Below are positions 5,489 through 26,411 of a stretch of 26,411 bases of DNA, piece after piece. A model generated the notes under the pieces. That model was not told the DNA's origin. It saw only the letters and a list, made by a program, of their open reading frames with translations, and did no database searches. The first letter of the stretch is position 1, and every line of letters begins with the position of its first letter. The stretch covers positions 1 to 26,411 of IMG/VR virus record IMGVR_UViG_3300049215_000780; one strand, written 5' to 3'. The DNA is from a virus. The translations under genes were made by a program, and so were the position numbers.

Positions 5489-6214
5489 ATGCTCGCCGCT
5501 CTATATGTCCGGGTCTCGAAAGACAAGTGCGACGCGTGTGGCCACGCCAAGACGGACCACTCGAAAGGGAAGGGTCGTTGCGAGCGCTTGAGGTGTACGT
5601 GCCGGCGGTACGAGGGGCAGGACCCGCAGAACCAGCTCGGCCCGTTGCGGACCTACGCGCGCGCCCAGGGATGGGAGACACGGGACTTCGTCGATTACGA
5701 GACCGGAAAGCACGCTCGGCGGGCGGCGATGCAGCAGGTCTTCTCGGCGGCGTCGCGGCGCGAGATCGGCATGGTGGTGGTGTGGGCTCTCGACCGGTTT
5801 ACCCGCGAGGGCGTGTCCGAGACTTTCGCACACCTCAAACGGCTGATGGATTTTGGCTGCGGGTTCGAGTCTTACACCGAGCCGCAGTTTCGCACCGCCG
5901 GTCCGTTTGGCGAGGTGATGATCGCGCTGGCGGCGACGATCGCGAAGATGGAGCGGGCGCGGATCTCCGACCGCACGAAGGCGGCGCTCGAGCGGTTGCG
6001 GGGCGAAGGGAAGAAGCTGGGGCGGCCAGGGAAGGTGTTTCGGATCGACCAGGCGCGGGAGCTACGGCAGGACGGCGCAAGTTGGCGCACGATTGAGAAG
6101 CTGCTGAAAGTTCCCCAGGCGAGCATTCGCCGAGCACTGGAAAAGGCGTCGAAAAATGGCCCGAAAAAGGGTGTGTCAAAAACCCCCTCGCGGGCTGCGG
6201 CGAAGGGGCATTGA
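5489..6214 (+). CDS. Small serine recombinase (resolvase/invertase type) with Cys/His insertion
   Basis: 241 residues. The catalytic motif YVRVS (6-10) carries R8 and nucleophile S10. DRFTR (102-106) matches the conserved DRxxR, and MERARISDRTKAAL (about 154-167) begins the long dimer helix. GKKLGRP and a C-terminal helix-turn-helix (about 183-225) complete the resolvase layout. I chose ATG 5489, preceded by AAGAGGA, so that YVRVS sits at the N-terminus; the open frame extends upstream to 5321 but that part has no family character. Between S10 and the conserved QDPQNQ is an extra module with C14, C17, H19, H24, C31, C36 and C38, probably a zinc site. The enzyme should cut and exchange DNA strands through a 5' phosphoserine. 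Whether it integrates the element, resolves multimers or inverts a segment cannot be told here. Confidence 0.88.
   Translation: MLAALYVRVSKDKCDACGHAKTDHSKGKGRCERLRCTCRRYEGQDPQNQLGPLRTYARAQGWETRDFVDYETGKHARRAAMQQVFSAASRREIGMVVVWALDRFTREGVSETFAHLKRLMDFGCGFESYTEPQFRTAGPFGEVMIALAATIAKMERARISDRTKAALERLRGEGKKLGRPGKVFRIDQARELRQDGASWRTIEKLLKVPQASIRRALEKASKNGPKKGVSKTPSRAAAKGH
6175..6208 (-). terminator. Possible minus-strand terminator inside the recombinase end
   Basis: Read on the minus strand, CCCCTTCGC pairs with GCGAGGGG (one bulge) and is followed at once by a T-run (GTTTTTGAC). It lies in the last codons of the recombinase. It could stop antisense transcription, but no minus-strand gene ends here, so it may be fortuitous. 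Confidence 0.3.
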
Positions 6215-6232: not shown

Positions 6233-6616
6233 ATGGAAATTTTCTGTGCCAAAACGGCCGTTTTGACACGACTCGCGCCGGATCTTGAGGTGGGGAATTT
6301 CGGCGGGACGGGCCGCCGGCCGCGCCCGGCCGCCCAGAGTGCGCAGAACTGCACGATTATTTTTTCGCATGCCGAATCGCCTGGACGTGACGGCTTGAGC
6401 AGCACCGAATATGAATGGCGGTGGGCGGAGATGTTGGCCGATCACTGCGCGCGGCGAGCGCTTGTGGACCTTTTCCCGCCGGATCGGGACGATGAGCCGC
6501 CCTTCGAACTCGACGACGACACACCGGCCCCTCCATGGAACGGCTTCTTGCGATGGGCGATGGATATCGGCCGGCGGGAAGGCGAATGGTTGCGGAGCAC
6601 GGGAGGCGCAAGATGA
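6233..6616 (+). CDS. Hypothetical protein, paralogue of the 6866 gene
   Basis: 127 residues from ATG 6233, which has a strong AAAGGAG site. From about residue 57 (STEYEWRWAEMLADHCARR) to the end (GFLRWAMDIGRREGEWLRS) it is clearly related to the whole product of the gene at 6866, sharing EYEWRWA, LFP, DEPP, ELD and FLRWAMDIGRREGE. The first 55 residues have no counterpart there and cover a DNA palindrome, so either the N-terminus is an addition or translation starts later, for example at TTG before SSTEYEWRW. The family is unknown; the conserved Trp/Arg pattern suggests a small helical protein. Confidence 0.6.
   Translation: MEIFCAKTAVLTRLAPDLEVGNFGGTGRRPRPAAQSAQNCTIIFSHAESPGRDGLSSTEYEWRWAEMLADHCARRALVDLFPPDRDDEPPFELDDDTPAPPWNGFLRWAMDIGRREGEWLRSTGGAR
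6246..6269. promoter_or_regulatory. Palindrome, candidate operator or recombinase site
   Basis: A perfect 14-bp core AAAACGGCCGTTTT (6251-6264) is extended on both sides to GTG.CAAAA and TTTTG.CAC, 24 bp in all with one mismatched pair. It lies just downstream of the recombinase gene and overlaps the first codons of the next gene. A related half-site (GTGTCAAAAA) occurs at about 6173. It could be an operator or a site for the neighbouring recombinase; no protein is assigned from sequence alone. Confidence 0.45.
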
Positions 6617-6873: not shown

Positions 6874-7075
6874 TTACGAATGGCGGTGGGCAAATGATCT
6901 GGCGGATTGGTGCGCGCATCGAGCACGGATAGGCCTTTTCCCGGTGCCGCCAAACGACGAACCGCCCTACGAGCTCGACGAGCCGGAACCGGCGCCCGCA
7001 TGGAACGACTTTTTGCGCTGGGCAATGGATATCGGCCGTCGAGAAGGGGAATCGCTGCGGAGCTTAAACTCATGA
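6866..7075 (+). CDS. Hypothetical protein, paralogue of the 6233 gene
   Basis: 69 residues beginning VASYEWRWANDLADW. GTG 6866 is chosen because AAGGAGGAG lies directly upstream and because the paralogous region of the 6233 gene starts at the same point. Shared elements are EWRW near the start, GLFP or DLFP, NDEPPYELDEPEPAP and FLRWAMDIGRREGESLRS. No known domain; both copies are preserved in frame, so both are probably under selection. The stop overlaps the next ATG (ATGA). Confidence 0.65.
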   Translation: MASYEWRWANDLADWCAHRARIGLFPVPPNDEPPYELDEPEPAPAWNDFLRWAMDIGRREGESLRSLNS

Positions 7076-10372: not shown

Positions 10373-10564
10373 ATGAAAGCCCGCAGATCATCGAGGGCCG
10401 GCGGCAAATTTCTCGCGAGCCTGCGGCAACAGGCCTCGCGTGAAGACGGAGCCCCACAGGCGGCCCCGCCGGCACGGCCGCCGCTCCGTTTCCCCATCTC
10501 GGAACCCGACGAGCCCGATTATCACCGCATGTCCGATGACGGGTGTCCGCACCACTTTGAGTAG
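10373..10564 (+). CDS. Small hypothetical protein
   Basis: 63 residues from ATG 10373. Basic N-terminus (MKARRSSRAGGKFLASLR), a Pro-rich middle and an acidic end (EPDEPDYHRMSDDGCPHHFE). The composition suggests little stable fold. It fits exactly between its neighbours, ending one base before the next ATG, but could be a chance frame. Confidence 0.45.
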   Translation: MKARRSSRAGGKFLASLRQQASREDGAPQAAPPARPPLRFPISEPDEPDYHRMSDDGCPHHFE

Positions 10565-10565
10565 C

Positions 10566-11123
10566 ATGAAACCCCTGACGGTCAATCAGCTTCGCGCAGC
10601 CCAACTCGTGGCCGAGGACCGGCTAACCAACACGGAGATTGCGAAGAAGTGCAAGGTGGCGCGCCGGACGGTCGACAACTGGAAAAAACTGGCCGCGTTT
10701 CGCGCCGAGGTGCAGCGGATCCAGCGCGCGGCCGAGCAGCAGGTGGTCGAATGCGCGGTCTCCGACAAGAAACGGCGGGTAGCGCAGCTCAACGCCGACT
10801 GGCTGGCGCTCGACCGCATTCAAAAAGAGCAGGCCGCGTTCCTGCGAGCCGTCGAAAAGAAACACAAGATCGTAATCGCCGGCGCGAGCACAGGCTTAGT
10901 CACGGAGCGGGTGACCACCGCCGGCACCGAATACCGGCTCAACACGGCGCTGCTCCGGGCGCGCCTCGCGATCCAGGAAGAGGTGGCGCGCGAGCTGGGG
11001 CAGCGGATCGACAAGAGCGCGCGTGCGCTGGTGCGAAGCGTCGAGGATCTGAGCGACGACGAGCTCGACGCCATGGTGAAGGACGGAGAGCGCCGCTTCG
11101 GCGCGGAGGCGGTGCGCAGATGA
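10566..11123 (+). CDS. terS: Probable terminase small subunit
   Basis: 185 residues from ATG 10566. Residues about 5-42 form a helix-turn-helix (LTVNQLRAAQLVAEDRLTN then EIAKKCKVARRTVDNWKKL), the DNA-recognition layout of phage small terminases. A long helical, charged middle and an acidic end (EDLSDDELDAMVKDGE) fit oligomerisation and contact with the motor. The call rests on fold pattern plus position immediately before the large terminase, with only two very small genes between. Its role would be to recognise phage DNA for packaging. A regulator is the alternative. Confidence 0.7.
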   Translation: MKPLTVNQLRAAQLVAEDRLTNTEIAKKCKVARRTVDNWKKLAAFRAEVQRIQRAAEQQVVECAVSDKKRRVAQLNADWLALDRIQKEQAAFLRAVEKKHKIVIAGASTGLVTERVTTAGTEYRLNTALLRARLAIQEEVARELGQRIDKSARALVRSVEDLSDDELDAMVKDGERRFGAEAVRR

Positions 11124-11227: not shown

Positions 11228-11404
11228 ATGCCGGATTCTCAGGCGCAGGTCAGATGGGCACACGCCGTCCTCGAAGGCGATGCTAAGGGCGACCGGAAAT
11301 TTGCGCGCGAGGTCGTCAATAACATGAGCGGCCGCCAGATGAAGGAATTGCCGCAGCGCAAAGGTCCAGGCAGATACCGGGTGCCGGAAAACCGAAATGA
11401 ATGA
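11228..11404 (+). CDS. Small hypothetical protein before the large terminase
   Basis: 58 residues from ATG 11228. DSQAQVRWAHAVLEGDAKGD, then FAREVVNNMSGRQMKELP and a basic end (QRKGPGRYRVP). I have the impression of a small conserved phage helical protein but cannot name it. Its stop overlaps the ATG of the large terminase (ATGA), so translation is coupled. Confidence 0.55.
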   Translation: MPDSQAQVRWAHAVLEGDAKGDRKFAREVVNNMSGRQMKELPQRKGPGRYRVPENRNE

Positions 11405-12168
11405 AAGCGCTCGCCGAATCGGACTTGCGGCTTCAGCGGGAACTCAAGCTGATCCGGCAGGCTGCACAATACCGGGAGAGGCGCGCGGAGCTGCGGCTCA
11501 AAGCGGAAGCCAGCCTGGCCGAGTTCAGCCGCCAGGCGTGGCACGTTCTGGAGCCGGCGACTCCCTATGTCCATGGCTGGCACATCGACGCCATGTGCCG
11601 GCATCTCGAAGCGGTGAGCAAAGGGTGGATCCGCAATCTGCTCATCAACATCCCGCCACGGCACATGAAGTCGCTCTCGGTGGCGGTCTTCTGGCCCTGC
11701 TGGGAATGGACCACGCGGCCTCATCGCCGCTGGATCTTCACGTCTTATGCCGAGCCGCTGTCCATCCGGGACTCAGTCAAATGCCGGCGCCTGATTCAGT
11801 CGCCCTGGTATCAGCGTAACTGGGGCGACCGGTTCCAGCTCACCGGCGACCAGAACGAAAAGCGGCGGTACGACAATACGGCAACCGGCGTGCGGATCGC
11901 GGCCGGCGTCCGCGGAACGATCATCGGCGAGGGCGGCGACGTCCTGGTCGGCGACGACCCCAACAACGTGAAGGAACGCGAGAGCGAAGCGGCCCGCGAA
12001 GAGGTCAACCAGTGGTGGGACGAGGTCATGTCCACTCGCGGCAACGATCCCAAAACGGTGGCGAAGGTGGTAGTACAGCAGCGCTCGCACGAATACGACC
12101 TCTCGGGGCATTTGTTGGAGCGCGGCAGCTGGGAACATCTTTGCCTGCCGGCGGAGTACGAAGCATGA
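11401..12168 (+). CDS. terL: Large terminase, ATPase half (split gene)
   Basis: 255 residues containing only the packaging motor of a phage large terminase. The Walker A is the PPRHMKS variant (85-91, K90). VLVGDDP (181-187) gives the Walker B with D185/D186. QQRSHEYDLSGHLL, near residue 225, is the conserved motif after it. The ORF stops just after LPAEYEA. In this family the chain continues directly into a segment with DPRT and ELLWPERF, which here begins 680 bases downstream (12851). The two parts seem to match end to end without missing sequence. The motor would hydrolyse ATP to drive DNA into the prohead. A one-piece protein is not encoded, so the halves would have to assemble as separate chains. 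Confidence 0.88.
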   Translation: MKALAESDLRLQRELKLIRQAAQYRERRAELRLKAEASLAEFSRQAWHVLEPATPYVHGWHIDAMCRHLEAVSKGWIRNLLINIPPRHMKSLSVAVFWPCWEWTTRPHRRWIFTSYAEPLSIRDSVKCRRLIQSPWYQRNWGDRFQLTGDQNEKRRYDNTATGVRIAAGVRGTIIGEGGDVLVGDDPNNVKERESEAAREEVNQWWDEVMSTRGNDPKTVAKVVVQQRSHEYDLSGHLLERGSWEHLCLPAEYEA

Positions 12169-12401
12169 AATCGATTTTGCGGCGTCTCTTTTATCGCCCG
12201 TTAATGCGCTTGGCGCACCGGCATGGCTGGCACCACGTCACCACCTCGCACCTCGAAGACGGCTCCGTCCAGCACTGGTGCCAATGGTGCGGGCTCCGAG
12301 AAACACTTCGGCGCGACACGTTTGCCGGAATGAAGCTCGTCGTGGACTACCGCTGCCCGAAAAACACGATTCTCATCACGAACATCGGAACACCGCGATG
12401 A
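12165..12401 (+). CDS. Small hypothetical protein inside the split terminase
   Basis: 78 residues from ATG 12165, overlapping the end of the ATPase half (ATGA). The N-terminus is basic (MKSILRRLFYRPLMRLAHRH) and the middle holds CQWC (39-42), with C64 further on, perhaps a metal site. It has no endonuclease motif (no LAGLIDADG, GIY-YIG or HNH), so it does not look like a homing gene. First of three genes separating the terminase halves. Confidence 0.5.
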   Translation: MKSILRRLFYRPLMRLAHRHGWHHVTTSHLEDGSVQHWCQWCGLRETLRRDTFAGMKLVVDYRCPKNTILITNIGTPR

Positions 12402-12559
12402 CGGACGAAGAAGCCGACCGAATCGGAACCCTGGCGCGCAAAGCGCTCACGGAAGTGCTCGACGAAATCGACGCGCTCAACCGCGAGTTCTGGAGCGCGG
12501 AATTGGCCGACGCCCAACGCATTCAAACCGCATCTGGCCTTTGGAAAAACCGCAAATGA
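12398..12559 (+). CDS. Small acidic hypothetical protein inside the split terminase
   Basis: 53 residues from ATG 12398 (ATGA overlap). One helix-rich chain, TDEEADRIGTLARKALTEVL then DEIDALNREFW, with no known motif. It may be a small coiled-coil partner. Confidence 0.5.
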   Translation: MTDEEADRIGTLARKALTEVLDEIDALNREFWSAELADAQRIQTASGLWKNRK

Positions 12560-12846
12560 AACGCCGCTTTCGCGATCTTCTCCGCAGGCTCCTGGTCCGC
12601 GCGGCTGCGGGCTCTGCCGTGTTCATGCCGCGGCCCACGCCGGCTCAGCCCAATCCGCCGCCGGCCGTAGAAGATCCCGCATCGTACCTCCAGGTCGAGT
12701 GGCACCTGCAAGCGCATCGCGAGCAAGTCAACGTCTCCGCCGACGAACTGGCGCAGGCCTGGCGCAATGCTGAGGATCACTGGAGCCGGGAATACCGGGA
12801 TCTGCCGGCGCAGCTCGCCGCGGTCACCAGGCGGCGAACCAAGTAA
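12556..12846 (+). CDS. Small hypothetical protein, possibly exported, inside the split terminase
   Basis: 96 residues from ATG 12556 (ATGA overlap). The first 30 residues combine basic residues with a hydrophobic stretch (RRLLVRAAAGSAVFMP), then a Pro-rich linker (TPAQPNPPPAVEDP) and a Trp/Glu-rich helical end. This could be a weak signal or anchor segment, but it is not convincing. Third of the genes between the terminase halves; its stop lies 4 bases before the TTG of the nuclease half. Confidence 0.5.
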   Translation: MKRRFRDLLRRLLVRAAAGSAVFMPRPTPAQPNPPPAVEDPASYLQVEWHLQAHREQVNVSADELAQAWRNAEDHWSREYRDLPAQLAAVTRRRTK

Positions 12847-12850
12847 TTCC

Positions 12851-14614
12851 TTGCCCAAACACACGACGTCCATAGGCTGGTCCGACCCGCGAACCAAGCC
12901 GGGAGAACTGTTGTGGCCGGAGCGGTTCGGCCCTCCCGAGCTGGAAGAACTGAAGAAATCGCTGGGACCGTTCGGCGCCGCCGGGCAGCTCCAGCAGCGG
13001 CCGTCTCCCGCCACCGGCGGCGTGTTCCAGCGGCACTGGTGGCGCTTTTGGCAACCGGCCGGCGCCAGTCTGCCGCCGATCCCGGTCAAGCAGCCCGATG
13101 GGACATTTCGCTCGATCGAGCCCATCACGCTGCCGCCGCTGGACGAAACGCTCCACTCCTGGGACATGAGCTACCGCGACCTGAAAGAATCCGACTTCGT
13201 GGTGGGCCAGCACTGGGGCCGTGCCGCGGCCCGCAAATTCCTATTGCACCAGGTCAAAGGACGCTGGGACTTCTCGCGAACCGCCAGCGAGGTCAAGAAA
13301 CTGGCCGAGGAGCGGCCCGCCGGCGCGAAGCTGATCGAGAACGCCGCTAACGGTCCGGCCATCATCTGGGCGCTCGAAGCGCAGGTGCCGGGCATCATCG
13401 CCATCGTCCCGATTGGCTCGAAAGAGGCGCGCGCATCCGCCATCAGCCCGCAGGTCGAAGCTGGAAATGTCTTTTTGCCGCACCCGGCGATCGCGGAGTG
13501 GGTGCCGGCCTTCATCAACGAATGCGCCGCGTTTCCGCGCGGCGCCAACGACGACCAGGTCGACGCGATGTCCCAGGCGCTCAACCGGCTGAACAAGGCC
13601 GAGATAATGCGTCTGCTGCCCGAGTTCCGCGCACACAACCGCGAGGGCGAGCCGGCCGAGGCCTGCCACGTCGTGCGGTCCCACGCGCTGGACGGCTGGT
13701 GGCTGCACTGGGTGGCCGCGAGCTGGCAGGCCGGCGTCTGCTACGCGGCTTGGTTCTGTCTGCGCCCGGACCAGCAGCTTCACGTCTACCGCGAAATCGA
13801 ATGCCGCGGCACCGCCGAAGAGGCGGGCGTCGCCATCGCCGAGGCGTCGATCGAGGAGCTGCAAAATACTCGCAGCCTGGTCCTGTTTCTACAACCCGAC
13901 TGCTTCGATGCGCACGTGACGGGCAAGCCCATTGCAGGCGAAATAGCCAAGGGCATCGAAAACGTCGCCGGGCGCGACGCCACCTTCACCTACGCCTTCA
14001 CCGACGCCGAACGCGCCATGACGGCCGATCAGGCATGGCTGTCCCTGGAAACGCGGCGCCGCAAAGCGCAGAAGGCGAGCATCCTCCTCAAAGGAGCGAC
14101 CGGAGACCGAGCGGGCGGATGGGAGCACATTCGCGGTCTGCTGCGCTGGTGGTCCCTCAGCACCGCCGAGCCCATTCCCTACGACCGGGAGACCGCAAAG
14201 AAGCTCCTCGACGAACCGGACGGCCAGGCGCGGTTCGACGAATATATGCGCCACGTCGCCGGAGAAAAGCCCGCGGAGCCGCTTCCCGGGCTGGTGATTC
14301 ACGACTCCTGCCAGTCCATGATCGCAGAGCTTCCCAGCCTCACCCGGGATGAAAAAAAGATCGACCTGGCCGCCCCATCGCTTTGCGGCGAAGCCCTGCT
14401 CGCCGGCATTTTGGGATACCGGGAGCACGCTGAGATCCGGCCGCCCGTCGAAGTCTTTACCGCCCAGCGCATTCTCGATCTGCGCCGCCGCAATCCGGAC
14501 GCCGACGCCACCCAGATCCACAATGTGGCCGCCAAGGCCGAGGCCGACTACGAGCGGCAGTTCGGGAAGCGCACCGGCTGGAACTTTTCCCGCATCGGGC
14601 GGGCGAGGACATAA
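12851..14614 (+). CDS. terL: Large terminase, nuclease half, with extra C-terminal domain
   Basis: 587 residues from TTG 12851, the start that fits the beginning of the conserved TSIGW...DPRTKPGELLWPERF segment. Residues about 95-245 form the RNase H-like nuclease: SWDMSYRD with D105, and NDDQVDAM with D234, D235 and D238 as likely metal ligands. This domain cuts concatemeric DNA during packaging. A further 340 residues follow, where most large terminases end. They read like another terminase nuclease: LHVYREIECRGTAEEAG, GGWEHIRGLLRWW (about 422-434), PGLVIHDSC (479-487) and LTRDEKK (497-503), then LCGEALLAGILGY where a DH..DA pattern would be expected. The second unit therefore seems degenerate. 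The TTG start has no strong ribosome site and may depend on coupling to the previous gene. Confidence 0.8.
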   Translation: MPKHTTSIGWSDPRTKPGELLWPERFGPPELEELKKSLGPFGAAGQLQQRPSPATGGVFQRHWWRFWQPAGASLPPIPVKQPDGTFRSIEPITLPPLDETLHSWDMSYRDLKESDFVVGQHWGRAAARKFLLHQVKGRWDFSRTASEVKKLAEERPAGAKLIENAANGPAIIWALEAQVPGIIAIVPIGSKEARASAISPQVEAGNVFLPHPAIAEWVPAFINECAAFPRGANDDQVDAMSQALNRLNKAEIMRLLPEFRAHNREGEPAEACHVVRSHALDGWWLHWVAASWQAGVCYAAWFCLRPDQQLHVYREIECRGTAEEAGVAIAEASIEELQNTRSLVLFLQPDCFDAHVTGKPIAGEIAKGIENVAGRDATFTYAFTDAERAMTADQAWLSLETRRRKAQKASILLKGATGDRAGGWEHIRGLLRWWSLSTAEPIPYDRETAKKLLDEPDGQARFDEYMRHVAGEKPAEPLPGLVIHDSCQSMIAELPSLTRDEKKIDLAAPSLCGEALLAGILGYREHAEIRPPVEVFTAQRILDLRRRNPDADATQIHNVAAKAEADYERQFGKRTGWNFSRIGRART

Positions 14615-15051
14615 TGTCTCTCGTCTTCCGAAATTTCCTGGCTGCCGGCCGCAAACGCAATTTGGGGCGCTTCGGGCTGTTTCGCGGGAGCGACGATCTC
14701 TCATGGATCGACAACCAGCCCGATCCGCTGCAATGGGCCACGGTAACCTTCTCCGCCACGCCCATCTTCGATGCGGCGCTCGGCCAGGTGTTAACGCTTA
14801 CCCTCAGCGGCGCGGTGACATCGAGCAGCCTCACCTCGGGCGGTGGAAACCCGACCCAGGGCACGCAGATTTACCTGCGGCTCTTGCAGGACAGCACCGG
14901 AGGCCGTACCTTCGCTTTTCCAGCCAACCTCAAAGTGGACAACAACTACGCGATCGACAGCCGGGCCAACTCCTGCACGATCCTACCGATCGAGTGGAAC
15001 GGCACCGCGTGGGAATTTTTCTCGGCACCGTTTAGCTTTCTGAATACCTGA
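14614..15051 (+). CDS. Putative virion surface or fibre protein
   Basis: 145 residues. The ATG overlaps the previous TAA. After a basic N-terminus, the body has TLTLSGAVTSSSLTSGGG, IYLRLLQDSTGGRTFAFP and IEWNGTAWEFF. This is a beta-rich repeat pattern common in the C-terminal parts of phage fibre or head-decoration proteins (the DG.GGRT..WP and DGT.W motifs). The neighbouring tailspike-like gene ends with a similar YDGTQWLDL, supporting a shared structural role. Exact position in the virion is not known. Confidence 0.6.
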   Translation: MSLVFRNFLAAGRKRNLGRFGLFRGSDDLSWIDNQPDPLQWATVTFSATPIFDAALGQVLTLTLSGAVTSSSLTSGGGNPTQGTQIYLRLLQDSTGGRTFAFPANLKVDNNYAIDSRANSCTILPIEWNGTAWEFFSAPFSFLNT

Positions 15052-16952
15052 TGCCCCAACTCGATTGGCCTACCGAAATTGCCCGCAAGCCGGCCGAGGA
15101 CCCGCGCAACTACGACTTTGCTGCGCTGGCGCCAGGCGGCAGCCTCACGGTGGGCAGCAATACAATCACGTTCCCGCGTGGCCTGCCGCCAGGCATCAAC
15201 GCCAATTCGCCGAACGTGTTACGCCTCTACTTGTCCGGCGGAGTAGGCACAGCGGAAGCCGTGACGGTGACCGCCGTCGACACCGCCGCGAGCCAGGTGA
15301 CCATCATCTGCGCGTACACCCACACGGGTGCGTGGACTATCGCCAGCGCCACGGGAGGCGTCCAGGAAGCCATCTGCCAACTGCCCAGCAGCGGAGGGGT
15401 TGTGTTGGCGCCAGCCGAAACCATCTCTCTTCACGCACCCATCAAGCGGCGCTTCGGCGTCCCGCTCTGGGTGCAAGGGGCGGGCCGCCAGGCCACCATT
15501 TTCGCCATCGCGGCGGACTTCGACCTATCGGCAAAAGGCGTCTTCGACTGGAGCCCCGGGGACGGCCTGGGCACGACCGAAGGCGGTATCTCCGACTTCA
15601 CGGTATTGTTCAGCCAGCCGACCAACCAAGGATCGTCCATCGCATCCTACACACACTGGCCACCCGCATTCTATGCCAACGGCAACTACCACCCGACGGT
15701 CGAGCGCGTCGATGTGATCCAGGGCTGGACCGGCTTTATGTTGGACGGAAACAACAACGGTGCCACGTTCCAGGATTTGCGCGCTTCCTGCTTCCACCGG
15801 ATGTTCGATTTGGAGACGACGGGGCACTGCTACGACGACGTCTTCGTCGAGGGCTGTATCGCCTCGACGCTCGGGCTGCAGGGTGACCAGTTCACCGCCT
15901 GGCTCACGCAGTCGAACGACATCACGTTTCTTTCAGCCGGGTCCATTGACGGCCTGCACGTGACGGCCTGTTCAATGTCTATCAAGTTCGGCACCTTCAA
16001 CACGGGCAGCGACGGCGATGCCTGCGCCGCCATCATCATGTCCACCTGGATGGACATGGGAGGGGTTGCGGTATTCGATGGCGCAATCACCATCATGGGG
16101 TGCCAGATTCTACCCACAGCCTCGGTCGTCGGCATTTCCCATTTGAAGGGCCAGGTAAGGGTAATGGCCTGCGAGTTCGACGGATCCGGACGCGCGTATC
16201 TGATGCAGGCGGCCGGGACCACCACGGCGGTGCCGTTCGTGCGGGCTTCCCTGGTGGACTGCGATTTTTATTCGACGGCGGATGCGATTGCCGTGCAGGC
16301 GATCGGCGTCAGCCCCTACTCCGGGACGGCGACGCTGCGGATTCACGCCTGCGGCTTTTATCGCGCCACCAACACCAACTACAGCACCCAGTCCGTGCTG
16401 GTGCAAAACGGGACCGCAACCGTGCGCGCCTCGATCTGCGGCAACATGTGGAGCGACATCGGGACGGGCTACTCCATTCAGATTCAGGCTATCGACAACG
16501 TTGACCACGTCATCGCCGCCAACGACGGCGGCGGAGGAGCGGGAGCGATCGTGGGCGCCAAAACCGCGTGGGGGGCGGACAACGTTCGATTCACGGGAGT
16601 GACCGCCCAGTATCCGAACTCCATGACTGCGGGAGCTGTCGGCACCGCGGCAGTCACCGCCGGGCAGACCGAAAACTACATCGCTTCGGAGACCGGGGCA
16701 AACAATGCGATTGCCGGCGCTCTCACAGATCCGGCCGGTACGGCGGTCGCGCTGGCCGCGGCGCTGAAGGTGACGGTGAAGCTGGCCCACACCCTGCAGG
16801 CCGGAGCCAACACTTTCGCACTCAACGGAGGCGCGGCCAAGAGCATCAAGAGCTCGCGCAACGCCAGCAACAACATCGGCACCGCCTACGCCGCCGGAGG
16901 AGTCATCGCGCTCGTCTACGACGGAACCCAGTGGCTCGATCTTTCGCAATGA
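15051..16952 (+). CDS. Beta-helix tailspike-like protein
   Basis: 633 residues, Gly/Ala/Thr/Ser-rich, with regularly spaced short strands typical of a right-handed beta-helix of the pectate-lyase/tailspike type. Recognisable points are VQEAICQLPSSGGVVLAPAE (about 105-124), which opens such folds, FYANGNYHPTVERVDVIQGW (about 207-226) and GCQILPTASVV. The last 90 residues (IASETGANNAIAGAL, NTFALNGGAAKSI, VIALVYDGTQWLDLSQ) form a fibre-tip-like domain. It probably binds or degrades a host surface glycan; no catalytic residues can be assigned by eye. ATG 15051 overlaps the preceding stop (TGATG). It lies between terminase and portal, an unusual place for a receptor-binding gene. Confidence 0.75.
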   Translation: MPQLDWPTEIARKPAEDPRNYDFAALAPGGSLTVGSNTITFPRGLPPGINANSPNVLRLYLSGGVGTAEAVTVTAVDTAASQVTIICAYTHTGAWTIASATGGVQEAICQLPSSGGVVLAPAETISLHAPIKRRFGVPLWVQGAGRQATIFAIAADFDLSAKGVFDWSPGDGLGTTEGGISDFTVLFSQPTNQGSSIASYTHWPPAFYANGNYHPTVERVDVIQGWTGFMLDGNNNGATFQDLRASCFHRMFDLETTGHCYDDVFVEGCIASTLGLQGDQFTAWLTQSNDITFLSAGSIDGLHVTACSMSIKFGTFNTGSDGDACAAIIMSTWMDMGGVAVFDGAITIMGCQILPTASVVGISHLKGQVRVMACEFDGSGRAYLMQAAGTTTAVPFVRASLVDCDFYSTADAIAVQAIGVSPYSGTATLRIHACGFYRATNTNYSTQSVLVQNGTATVRASICGNMWSDIGTGYSIQIQAIDNVDHVIAANDGGGGAGAIVGAKTAWGADNVRFTGVTAQYPNSMTAGAVGTAAVTAGQTENYIASETGANNAIAGALTDPAGTAVALAAALKVTVKLAHTLQAGANTFALNGGAAKSIKSSRNASNNIGTAYAAGGVIALVYDGTQWLDLSQ

Positions 16953-18098: not shown

Positions 18099-20582
18099 TT
18101 GCAAGTCATTGCCCCCGCGCCACAGCCGCCCGACAAGAAGCAGTTGCTCGAAATCTTCCGGGAATCGGTTGCGAAAATCATCAAGGAAGACGTCCCCCTG
18201 GACGCCGAGCCGGAAAAGCTATGGCAGTACCGGCAGGCGTCCAAGGCGGACCTCTACTGGCGCGGGCTGCAATACGTGTCGCCAGCCCTTTTCGAGGGCG
18301 GCCTGGCGATGTTTTCGAGCGTGGGGACGCCGCTCGCCTCGACGGAGCCCCAGCGCGGCGCGACAGGGCTCTACGATTACGTCCAGAACATCTACCGCGG
18401 CTACGGCCGGAAGTTCATCGGCGCGATCGGCCTGCGGGCTCCCAACGTCAAGGCCGTGCCGGACGATCCGGAGGACGAAGACTCCCAGCGCCGTACGCGC
18501 ATGGCGGACACGGCCGCGCAGATCCTGCGCGCCAAGTGGGACATCGACCAACGCAACCTCGAACTGGCGATGCACCTGTGGAAGTCAGGCACCACGTTCG
18601 GCTACACGCCATACATCACCAACGGCGGCAAATACGGCAAGACCACCCAGCCGCGCGTAGAAGCGCGCCAGGTGCCGCTGGGACCGCCGGTCTACGCGTG
18701 CCCGGGCTGCGGGGCCAAGACGCCCGACCAGGGCCAGCCCGTCGCAAACTGCCCGCAATGCGGCCGGCAGCTCGGCCCCGAGAATCGCGTGGAACCGGAG
18801 ACCACCGACGTACCCGAGGTCGTGGGCCAGGCACAATACGACAACGGCGCGGTGGAATTTCACCTCTGCAACATCTTCACCGTCACGACGCCGTTTTTTG
18901 CCCATGACCTCGAAGACACGCCCTGGCTCACTTATGAATACGACGAGTACAAGGGACGGCTGCTGGCGGCGCACCCGGAGCTCCGCGAGCAGGGGTCGCT
19001 TGAGAACTTCGGCGACGACTCGGCTTCGTCGGGCGTGGGCAGTATCGTGCGGGACACGGCCGCCTCGCCCATGGGAGTGCCGACGCCGCGGCGGACCTCG
19101 CGGTGGCGCTACACGCGGATCTGGCTGAAGCCGGAAATGTACGAGTCGATCGAGGACAGCCAGGTGAGCGACGCGATCGGCGGGTACGTGCCGGACGGGA
19201 AGCTGCGCACCGGCCTTCAGCAGTTCTACCCGGACGGCCTCAAGGTCACGCTCGTGCAAGGCAAGATCGTCCAGCTCGAAAACGAGCGGCTGCAAGATGT
19301 ATGGGCGATGTGTAAGCCGGAGACCTCGGAGTACATCTTCGCCGATCCGATGGGGCAGGACATGCTCCAGATTCAGGATCTCAAGAACGACATGCTGAAC
19401 ATCGCGGCGGAGACCCTGGAGCGCGGCCTGCCCATCACCTTCGTCCACCCGGACACCGTCGATACCGAGCAGTGGACCCAGACGCAGTCTGTGCCCTGCG
19501 AGATTATGCCGGCGACTCCCGCGGTCGGCTCCAACCTGGGCGACAACTTCTTCCAGACCCAGGCCGCGCGGTTCAGCGACCAGATGCAGCCGTGGGTGGA
19601 AGCAACGGTCGCGGAAGCGCGCGACGTGGTCGGCTGCAACCCGGTGATCTACGGCGGCGACGACGGGTCCCAGACCGCCCGGGAAGCCGAAATCAAGAAG
19701 AACGCCGCGTTGCAGCAATTGGGCGTGCCCTGGCTGAACATGCGCAAGTTCCACGCCGCGGTGCAGACCAACGGGGTGAAGCAGCTCGCGCGCTACGGCG
19801 CCGGCATGATGCGGGCGGTGAAAGAAGGCGCGCAGGGCTTCGAGAGCCTGATGCTCAACGTGGCCGAGCTGAAGGAGGACGGCTGGCATTTCGAGGCGGA
19901 AGAGGCCATCCCGATGAGCTGGGGCCAGATGCGGGACCTGCTCATGTTCATGATGGAGAAGCCGCCGCAGGTATTGCAGGCGTGGGGTTACGGCCACCCC
20001 ATGAACATCGCCAAGATGCAGTCGCTGCTCGGCATGACCGGGTGGTACACGCCGGGGCTCAACGAGCGCGACAAGGTAATGGACACCATCGGCCGGCTGC
20101 AAAAGGCGCAGCCCATCCAGAAGCCGAATCCGGACGGCTCGATCGACCTGCAGCCCAGTATCCCGGCGGACAGCTTCGAAGACGATGCGCAGCTCGTGGT
20201 GGACCTGGTGAAGGCATGGGCGCAATCGCCGGCGGGCCGGCGCGCGCGGCAGATGAATCCGGAGGGATACGCCAACGTGATCGCATACGGCACTCAGTAT
20301 CAAAAGATGCTGAACCCTCCGCCTCCCCCGCCGCCTCCTCCTCCGCAGCCCAGCCTAAGCATCACGGCCAAGCTGCCGGAGCTCGACCCTAACACGCAAC
20401 GCGCGGTGCTAGCGGACTTCAACCTCGCCGGAGCCCCGCCGGCGCCCGGCGCGCAGCCAGGCGCTCCGCCGGCTCCGGCCGGTCCTCCTCCGCCCGCAGG
20501 GCCTCCGCCCGGCGGCGTCGATATGGGCGGGATGCCGCCGCCGCCCGGTCCGATGGGGGCGCAGCCGGTCAACGTGCAATGA
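18099..20582 (+). CDS. Portal protein
   Basis: 827 residues from TTG 18099, the only start near the neighbouring stop. The order and length fit a large portal: helical clip and wing sequence (LYDYVQNIYRGYGRKFIGAI), a central body with RWRYTRIWLKPEMYESI, then NPVIYGGDDGSQTAREAEIK (about 513-532) and the helical crown-like end (DDAQLVVDLVKAWAQSPAGR). Portals form the dodecameric DNA channel at one capsid vertex. Unusual here is a zinc ribbon within the body, with C201/C204 and C218/C221 (CPGCGAK ... CPQCGRQ). The last 85 residues are Pro-rich with a run of about 10 prolines (near 20318-20348), probably disordered and exposed. It lies downstream of the terminase and upstream of scaffold and capsid, as expected. 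Confidence 0.82.
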   Translation: MQVIAPAPQPPDKKQLLEIFRESVAKIIKEDVPLDAEPEKLWQYRQASKADLYWRGLQYVSPALFEGGLAMFSSVGTPLASTEPQRGATGLYDYVQNIYRGYGRKFIGAIGLRAPNVKAVPDDPEDEDSQRRTRMADTAAQILRAKWDIDQRNLELAMHLWKSGTTFGYTPYITNGGKYGKTTQPRVEARQVPLGPPVYACPGCGAKTPDQGQPVANCPQCGRQLGPENRVEPETTDVPEVVGQAQYDNGAVEFHLCNIFTVTTPFFAHDLEDTPWLTYEYDEYKGRLLAAHPELREQGSLENFGDDSASSGVGSIVRDTAASPMGVPTPRRTSRWRYTRIWLKPEMYESIEDSQVSDAIGGYVPDGKLRTGLQQFYPDGLKVTLVQGKIVQLENERLQDVWAMCKPETSEYIFADPMGQDMLQIQDLKNDMLNIAAETLERGLPITFVHPDTVDTEQWTQTQSVPCEIMPATPAVGSNLGDNFFQTQAARFSDQMQPWVEATVAEARDVVGCNPVIYGGDDGSQTAREAEIKKNAALQQLGVPWLNMRKFHAAVQTNGVKQLARYGAGMMRAVKEGAQGFESLMLNVAELKEDGWHFEAEEAIPMSWGQMRDLLMFMMEKPPQVLQAWGYGHPMNIAKMQSLLGMTGWYTPGLNERDKVMDTIGRLQKAQPIQKPNPDGSIDLQPSIPADSFEDDAQLVVDLVKAWAQSPAGRRARQMNPEGYANVIAYGTQYQKMLNPPPPPPPPPPQPSLSITAKLPELDPNTQRAVLADFNLAGAPPAPGAQPGAPPAPAGPPPPAGPPPGGVDMGGMPPPPGPMGAQPVNVQ

Positions 20583-25837: not shown

Positions 25838-26411
25838 CGGCCGGCCTGGTGGGGACGCCCGATCCGGCGACCTCCGCGATCGCGGCCAGAAGCGCCTGCC
25901 GCTCGATGGGCTCCATCAGGCGAAGGCGCGCGGTCCACCGCCGCTGTCTGCGGCGGATCCGCTCGCGCTCGCGCTTGTTGTCGCCGAGGAAGCGATAGTC
26001 GTGGAGCTCGACCGGCCGGGGGAAATTGCACCAGACCCATTCGGCCGCCGGCTTGCCGCGGGTGGCGGCCTGGAAGGAATAGACGCTCCACTTGCGGAGC
26101 GCCTTGGCGTACATGGCGGAGGAGTACCCCGAGATCATCACATGGCACGGCAAGCGTTGAATCACCGCCAGCAGCTCCTGGTGGTCGCGATCGCTCAGCT
26201 CGTAGCGATAGCGGCTGCCGGAGGCGCGCGTCGAGAGCAGGTAGGGCGGGTCGCAGTAAACCAGCTCGCGGCCGGTGAACGGATAGGCGCGGAGAAACTC
26301 GATGCCGTCGCCGACGAGGAATTGAAATTCGGAGCCGCCGGAAGCGGCGCCGGTGGCCAGCGGCGCCAGCTCGGGCGGCGGGGGGCCGCGCCCCCCCCCC
26401 GCCCCCCCCCC
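25752..26411 (-). CDS. DNA adenine methylase, C-terminal part (cut at window edge)
   Basis: The minus-strand frame from the window edge to the TGA at 25752-25754 encodes about 219 residues of an N6-adenine methylase of the type carried by phages. VYCDPPYLLSTRASG contains the DPPY catalytic motif (26241-26252). Preceding it is FQFLVGDGIEFLRAYPFTGR, and following it are DRDHQELLAVIQ, VMISGYSSAMY and EWVWCNFPRP. The last part is basic, then Ala/Pro-rich where it overlaps the zinc-ribbon gene. It should methylate adenine in DNA using S-adenosylmethionine, perhaps to protect phage DNA. The S-adenosylmethionine-binding N-terminus is outside the window. The first coded residues come from poly-C/poly-G sequence and are unreliable. 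Confidence 0.82.
   Translation of the reverse strand, partial: GGGAGGGRGPPPPELAPLATGAASGGSEFQFLVGDGIEFLRAYPFTGRELVYCDPPYLLSTRASGSRYRYELSDRDHQELLAVIQRLPCHVMISGYSSAMYAKALRKWSVYSFQAATRGKPAAEWVWCNFPRPVELHDYRFLGDNKRERERIRRRQRRWTARLRLMEPIERQALLAAIAEVAGSGVPTRPAATAGAAPRAAGPRAPAAASSAPSRSSGR
26391..26411. repeat. Homopolymer tract at window end
   Basis: Ten Cs, one G and ten Cs end the window, preceded by CGGCGGGGGGCCGCG. On the minus strand this is poly-G inside the methylase frame. Such runs are typical of a poorly sequenced or artefactual contig end, so base counts here should not be trusted. Confidence 0.7.

Follow-up and report, generated by a model that had tools for sequence, protein, structure and literature searches.

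The large terminase (TerL) of the phage lineage described here is quite probably a two-polypeptide enzyme, expressed from an unspliced operon and assembled non-covalently, with a probable origin in the invasion of its gene by a homing endonuclease. The window, i.e., the whole stretch of DNA analysed, comprises 26,411 nt of an uncultured phage (IMG/VR record IMGVR_UViG_3300049215_000780). The TerL domains are not located on a single polypeptide in this window, with a second ORF lying ~680 bp past the stop codon of the first one. Comparison with a related virus (IMGVR_UViG_3300044470_000195, hereafter L083) indicates that the gene of an essential enzyme has really been split here, and that the split is inherited.

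Two chains and the genes between them

The features of the terminase locus, all of them on the plus strand, are the following:

10440..11123, +, candidate small terminase subunit (HTH; phrog_2538, E 1.3e-9)
11401..12168, +, TerL chain 1, predicted ASCE nucleotide-binding core (phrog_38; dN/dS 0.18 against L083)
12165..12401, +, insert gene 1, 78 aa, containing a CxxC motif and starting at an ATG that overlaps the stop codon (TGA) of chain 1
12398..12559, +, insert gene 2, 53 aa, an ORF with an ATGA overlap with gene 1
12556..12846, +, insert gene 3, 96 aa, conserved in the L083 insert
12851..14614, +, TerL chain 2, with a putative lid, a linker, an RNase H-like nuclease and a C-terminal extension (phrog_38, TIGR01630, Terminase_6C)
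13628..14611, +, C-terminal extension of chain 2, ~330 aa, 51% identical in L083 and not present in any one-piece relative
18099..20582, +, portal-like protein, 3.5 kb downstream of chain 2 (phrog_156 portal, E 2.9e-4)

Profile searches matched chain 1 (255 aa) to positions 254-476 of the TerL family phrog_38 (E 6.6e-41) and chain 2 (587 aa) to positions 482-705 (E 2.9e-50), the family being tiled by the two chains with no overlap between them. A first-pass annotation of this DNA had read an ATPase half ending in LPAEYEA at 12168 and a nuclease half starting at 12851, and the matches to consecutive phrog_38 stretches bear this out. Chain 2 was also matched by TIGR01630 (psiM2_ORF9; E 1.3e-24) and Terminase_6C (E 4.8e-10). 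Chain 1 contains Walker A (PPRHMKS) and Walker B (VLVGDDP) motifs and terminates in ...CLPAEYEA, followed by a TGA stop codon at 12166-12168. The start of chain 2 is ambiguous, corresponding either to the TTG at 12851, without a clear ribosome-binding site, or to an ATG at 12767, within gene 3.

The insert between the chains spans 682 bp and holds three small ORFs, with ATGA overlaps linking chain 1, gene 1, gene 2 and gene 3, the last of which ends 4 bp ahead of the TTG of chain 2. The ORFs display coding-like GC3 values (0.70-0.77) and a codon-position GC pattern near that of the flanking genes, and no repeats were detected around the insert. Gene 3 is 45% identical to L083:5474-5755 (BLASTP 2e-15), with a dN/dS of 0.49 against L083. 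Gene 1 reached no family above the cut-off in profile searches and has a weak match to L083:4900-5076 (BLASTP E 0.036; 29-bp DNA match, E 0.009). No relative of gene 2 was found in any of the fetched loci.

A longer record of 57.7 kb (G001), whose first 26,379 bases are identical to the window, carries the same split, which because of this identity does not constitute independent evidence. In the last 32 bases of the window (26380-26411), 15 positions differ from G001, likely as a contig-end artefact. End repeats are absent from both the G001 and L083 records, so that both may be incomplete. Elsewhere in the window, a 633-aa gene without any family match lies between the terminase and the portal (15051-16952) and has, by eye, the look of a repetitive, beta-rich tail or spike protein, and the segments 6410-6598 and 6875-7063 are ~75% alike, likely through a local gene duplication. 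Among the reference families, phrog_4758 and phrog_5573 (~250 positions long) match only the ATPase half or only the nuclease half of TerL; other split or fragmentary TerLs may therefore exist among reference phages.

Position and inheritance of the break

The two halves are joined in one frame at exactly this point in ~150 relatives (~70 one-piece ORFs that were extracted, together with 83 of 85 further loci). Searches of each half by tblastn against the fetched viral loci indicated that they adjoin in one frame almost everywhere. In the nearest cellular relative, found in a Terriglobia (Acidobacteriota) MAG (L099), residue 255 of chain 1 leads straight into residue 2 of chain 2, and the sequence is unbroken across the junction (...CLPAEYEGPGRATSIGFSDPR...). 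Both the number of one-piece relatives and the exact junction in L099 agree with the initial statement that these segments are contiguous in ordinary members of the family. The nearest annotated phages checked (CRP-901, ct7L0027 and Aeromonas phage 56) also have a one-piece TerL. That of Roseobacter phage CRP-901 (OQ401623) is the closest cultured relative of chain 1, with 54% identity; it is encoded by one gene of 476 aa with the connector gene immediately after, whereas the window has two genes.

Bacterial genomes searched with a chain 1 alignment yielded four relatives, three of them one-piece and one (L102) with a break of the split-intein type. Among the relatives examined, only the window lineage and L083 are split at this point, and the search for more split relatives in viral contigs, using alignments of chain 2, the C-terminal extension and gene 3, returned the same two viruses only. 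The first-pass annotation had proposed looking for relatives with the same split and the same inserted genes; L083 is such a relative, being divided at the same point and sharing gene 3.

L083 is 69% identical to the window in chain 1 and 63% over chain 2. Its insert occupies the same split point and is twice as long (1276 bp), comprising the gene 3 homologue, a probable gene 1 homologue, two other small ORFs and an HNH remnant located directly before chain 2. This remnant corresponds to an N-terminally truncated endonuclease (LDHVHG...FQILCANCN), with weak matches to Pfam HNH (E 0.0051) and phrog_2255 (E 0.0029) and no convincing match in the PDB. The block had originally been described as free of homing-endonuclease motifs, which is true in the window but not at the L083 junction. 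Each of the two viruses has a stop codon overlapping a start codon at the junction. One gene of the L083 insert has a relative elsewhere in the genome of the window phage (L094:13293-13448, 60%), which suggests that small genes move about within this phage group. Chain 2 of L083 also shows a 1-bp frameshift among its first ~30 codons (6070-6120), being either a sequencing error or real.

Separate trees of each half placed the window and L083 as sisters, with support of 0.97 and 0.98. Since both trees agree, the insert most likely dates to their common ancestor, and the presence of the same split in the independent L083 argues that it is not an assembly artefact.

The location of the cut within the enzyme was mapped onto a model of a one-piece relative (L009, pLDDT 90), the fold of which strongly matches T4 gp17 and D6E TerL in Foldseek. 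In this model the last strand of the ASCE core comprises residues 235-238, the lid helices 272-291 and the first nuclease strand 320-326, with the split point at residues 244-245. The lid was assigned from the order of the secondary-structure elements and the Foldseek match to D6E and T4 gp17; the D6E lid residues align opposite L009 271-292 in an hhalign comparison that is not significant as a whole. In D6E TerL, the lid sits just before the linker (PMC5727402). This topology suggests that the cut lies inside the ATPase domain, after the nucleotide-binding core and before the lid, so that chain 1 would be a core without the lid and chain 2 would contain the lid, the linker and the nuclease. 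The division of TerL by three coupled genes, as proposed in the first-pass annotation, is thus upheld, but the cut is not at the boundary between motor and nuclease. What had been called the nuclease half does match the nuclease, but would also include the lid, the linker and the C-terminal extension.

Near-invariant TerL residues are largely kept across the two chains, 58 of 59 in the window and 55 of 59 in L083, where the four missing residues are all located in the frameshifted stretch. The ATPase core retains its invariant Lys and Asp-Asp in chain 1, and the RNase H-like nuclease retains its acidic residues (D105, D235 and D238). Against L083, dN/dS is 0.18 in chain 1, 0.13 in the nuclease part of chain 2 and 0.30 in the C-terminal extension; these sequence comparisons indicate that both chains are under purifying selection. 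No second TerL was found in the 57.7-kb G001 record or in the 48.4-kb L083 record.

The C-terminal extension (residues 260-587 of chain 2) is missing from all the one-piece relatives (~70 extracted ORFs). A two-sequence profile of the extension matched the nuclease part of the Mesyanzhinovviridae TerL (hhalign E 1.3e-6, Prob 82), while the best of 30 column shuffles used as a control reached E 3.3. When the Mesyanzhinovviridae TerL profile was compared with all the ORFs of both genomes, the extension was the top match (E 0.0009). Two of the acidic active-site positions appear to be lost, as judged by eye from the hhalign alignment. By these comparisons, the extension looks like a degenerate nuclease domain from a different TerL family. 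In the AlphaFold model of chain 2, confidence is limited to the nuclease, so this reading of the extension rests on profile comparison. The extension may represent a relic of a previous terminase, or it may serve in docking.

Origin and function of the split

According to the explanation preferred here, a homing-endonuclease gene would have entered terL in the ancestor shared by the window phage and L083; this endonuclease would later have decayed, leaving its remnant in L083, and small phage genes would have gathered in the gap. Terminase genes often have homing endonucleases as neighbours (PMC10448857), and in nrdA of Aeromonas phage Aeh1 a homing insertion left a two-chain enzyme that still works (PMC3653736). 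Both chains would be translated from one operon by termination-reinitiation, with the three small genes in between. Chain 1 would supply the ASCE ATP-binding core and chain 2 the lid, the linker, the nuclease and the added C-terminal domain, with reassembly taking place through docking of the lid onto the core. It has been described in T4 that, once the hinge is missing, the ATPase and nuclease domains each remain active but translocation is lost (PMC9958956). A cut upstream of the lid would spare the connection between lid, linker and nuclease, which T4 gp17 needs to have linked for translocation. A break of the T4 type would in this way be avoided, which may be why the split is tolerated. 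A more specific and rather doubtful proposal is that of a working packaging motor of two polypeptides in which the degenerate nuclease-like domain helps to hold or regulate the complex, replacing the covalent link.

Several alternatives were weighed against a two-chain enzyme. The packaging genes could be decaying, with the phage being defective or reliant on another TerL, in agreement with the frameshift early in the L083 chain 2, the accumulation of small ORFs and an HNH remnant, and the possible incompleteness of both records. This is unlikely considering the purifying selection on both chains over ~69-79% identity, the retention of near-invariant residues and the lack of another TerL in 57.7 or 48.4 kb. 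An assembly error or chimera might be suspected from the metagenomic nature of the data and the differences from the longer record in the last ~32 bases of the window; nevertheless, the split recurs at the same codon in an independent virus with 69% identity and a homologous insert gene, and G001 has the same structure, which makes this reading extremely improbable.

The block could also be an undescribed self-splicing intron containing ORFs, with a full-length TerL produced from spliced RNA as in ICP1 terL. The terL gene is a known hot spot for introns and homing, with that of ICP1 being spliced (PMC10448857), and an in-frame join of the chains is possible. However, no relevant ribozyme family was found in either insert (Rfam, even at E <= 10), the insert consists almost wholly of overlapping coding ORFs, and stop and start overlap at the junction in both viruses. 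In addition, the two inserts (682 versus 1276 bp) do not have their ends in common, their shared parts being limited to gene 3 and 29 bp of gene 1. An intron is therefore quite unlikely, and the joining of the chains during or after translation, e.g., by a split intein or translational bypassing, seems very improbable. It is true that same-family TerLs in L071, L070, L072 and L102 consist of two genes around a third one and carry split-intein halves, but a search at E <= 0.1 detected neither an N- nor a C-terminal intein signature in the two window chains, and the conserved EYE motif lies right at the end of chain 1. In the same search, the positive control L071 gave N- and C-intein matches with E values of 4e-11 and 6e-7. 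The translational bypass of T4 gene 60 covers ~50 nt, and the 682 nt of the window are far beyond that case. The original alternative of two assembling chains or a joining step hence leaves the two chains as the best reading, inteins and known intron families not having been found.

The split suggests that two chains can come together to form a packaging motor. A central unsolved problem of viral packaging is how the lid and linker convert ATP hydrolysis in the core into DNA movement, and a motor naturally divided between core and lid would provide two independently variable chains, making non-covalent core-lid coupling directly testable. Provided that the homing origin is true, an essential enzyme made as one chain can become a two-chain enzyme through the invasion of a mobile gene.

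Comparison with known systems

No description of a two-chain unspliced TerL was found in the open-access literature, and the closest systems each share part of the arrangement. The herpesvirus terminase UL15 (PMC3079670) is a TerL homologue in two pieces with other genes between them, although in the host cell the pieces are brought together by splicing of the RNA, and its intron genes lie on the opposite strand. The TerL inteins of mycobacteriophage (PMC5050341) and cyanophage Mic1 (PMC7156551) likewise reflect the invasion of TerL by mobile elements, but one chain is restored. An ordinary in-frame intein was also observed in a same-family TerL (L077:1683-4451), with an HNH-like ORF, by eye, on the opposite strand inside it. 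The spliced terL of ICP1 and other terL introns (PMC10448857) resemble the window in having an interrupted large terminase with homing endonucleases nearby; however, RNA splicing restores one chain in ICP1, whereas no intron was detected in the window.

Within the same TerL family, L071 (5917-8941), L070, L072 and L102 also have two genes, a gene in between and overlapping start and stop codons, the intervening gene of this type of break being GIY-YIG-like by eye. In these loci the break interrupts the ATPase core beside Walker B, and the intein halves are able to restore a continuous protein; neither the Walker B-adjacent break nor the intein halves are present in the window.

Aeh1 nrdA, with its mobE insertion (PMC3653736), resembles the window in that the gene of an essential enzyme is cut in two with no intron or intein. 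It differs in encoding a ribonucleotide reductase and in the presence of the endonuclease, which the window lacks and of which L083 keeps a remnant, while the gap in the window holds three small genes. Both chains of Aeh1 nrdA are functional, as those of the window would be.
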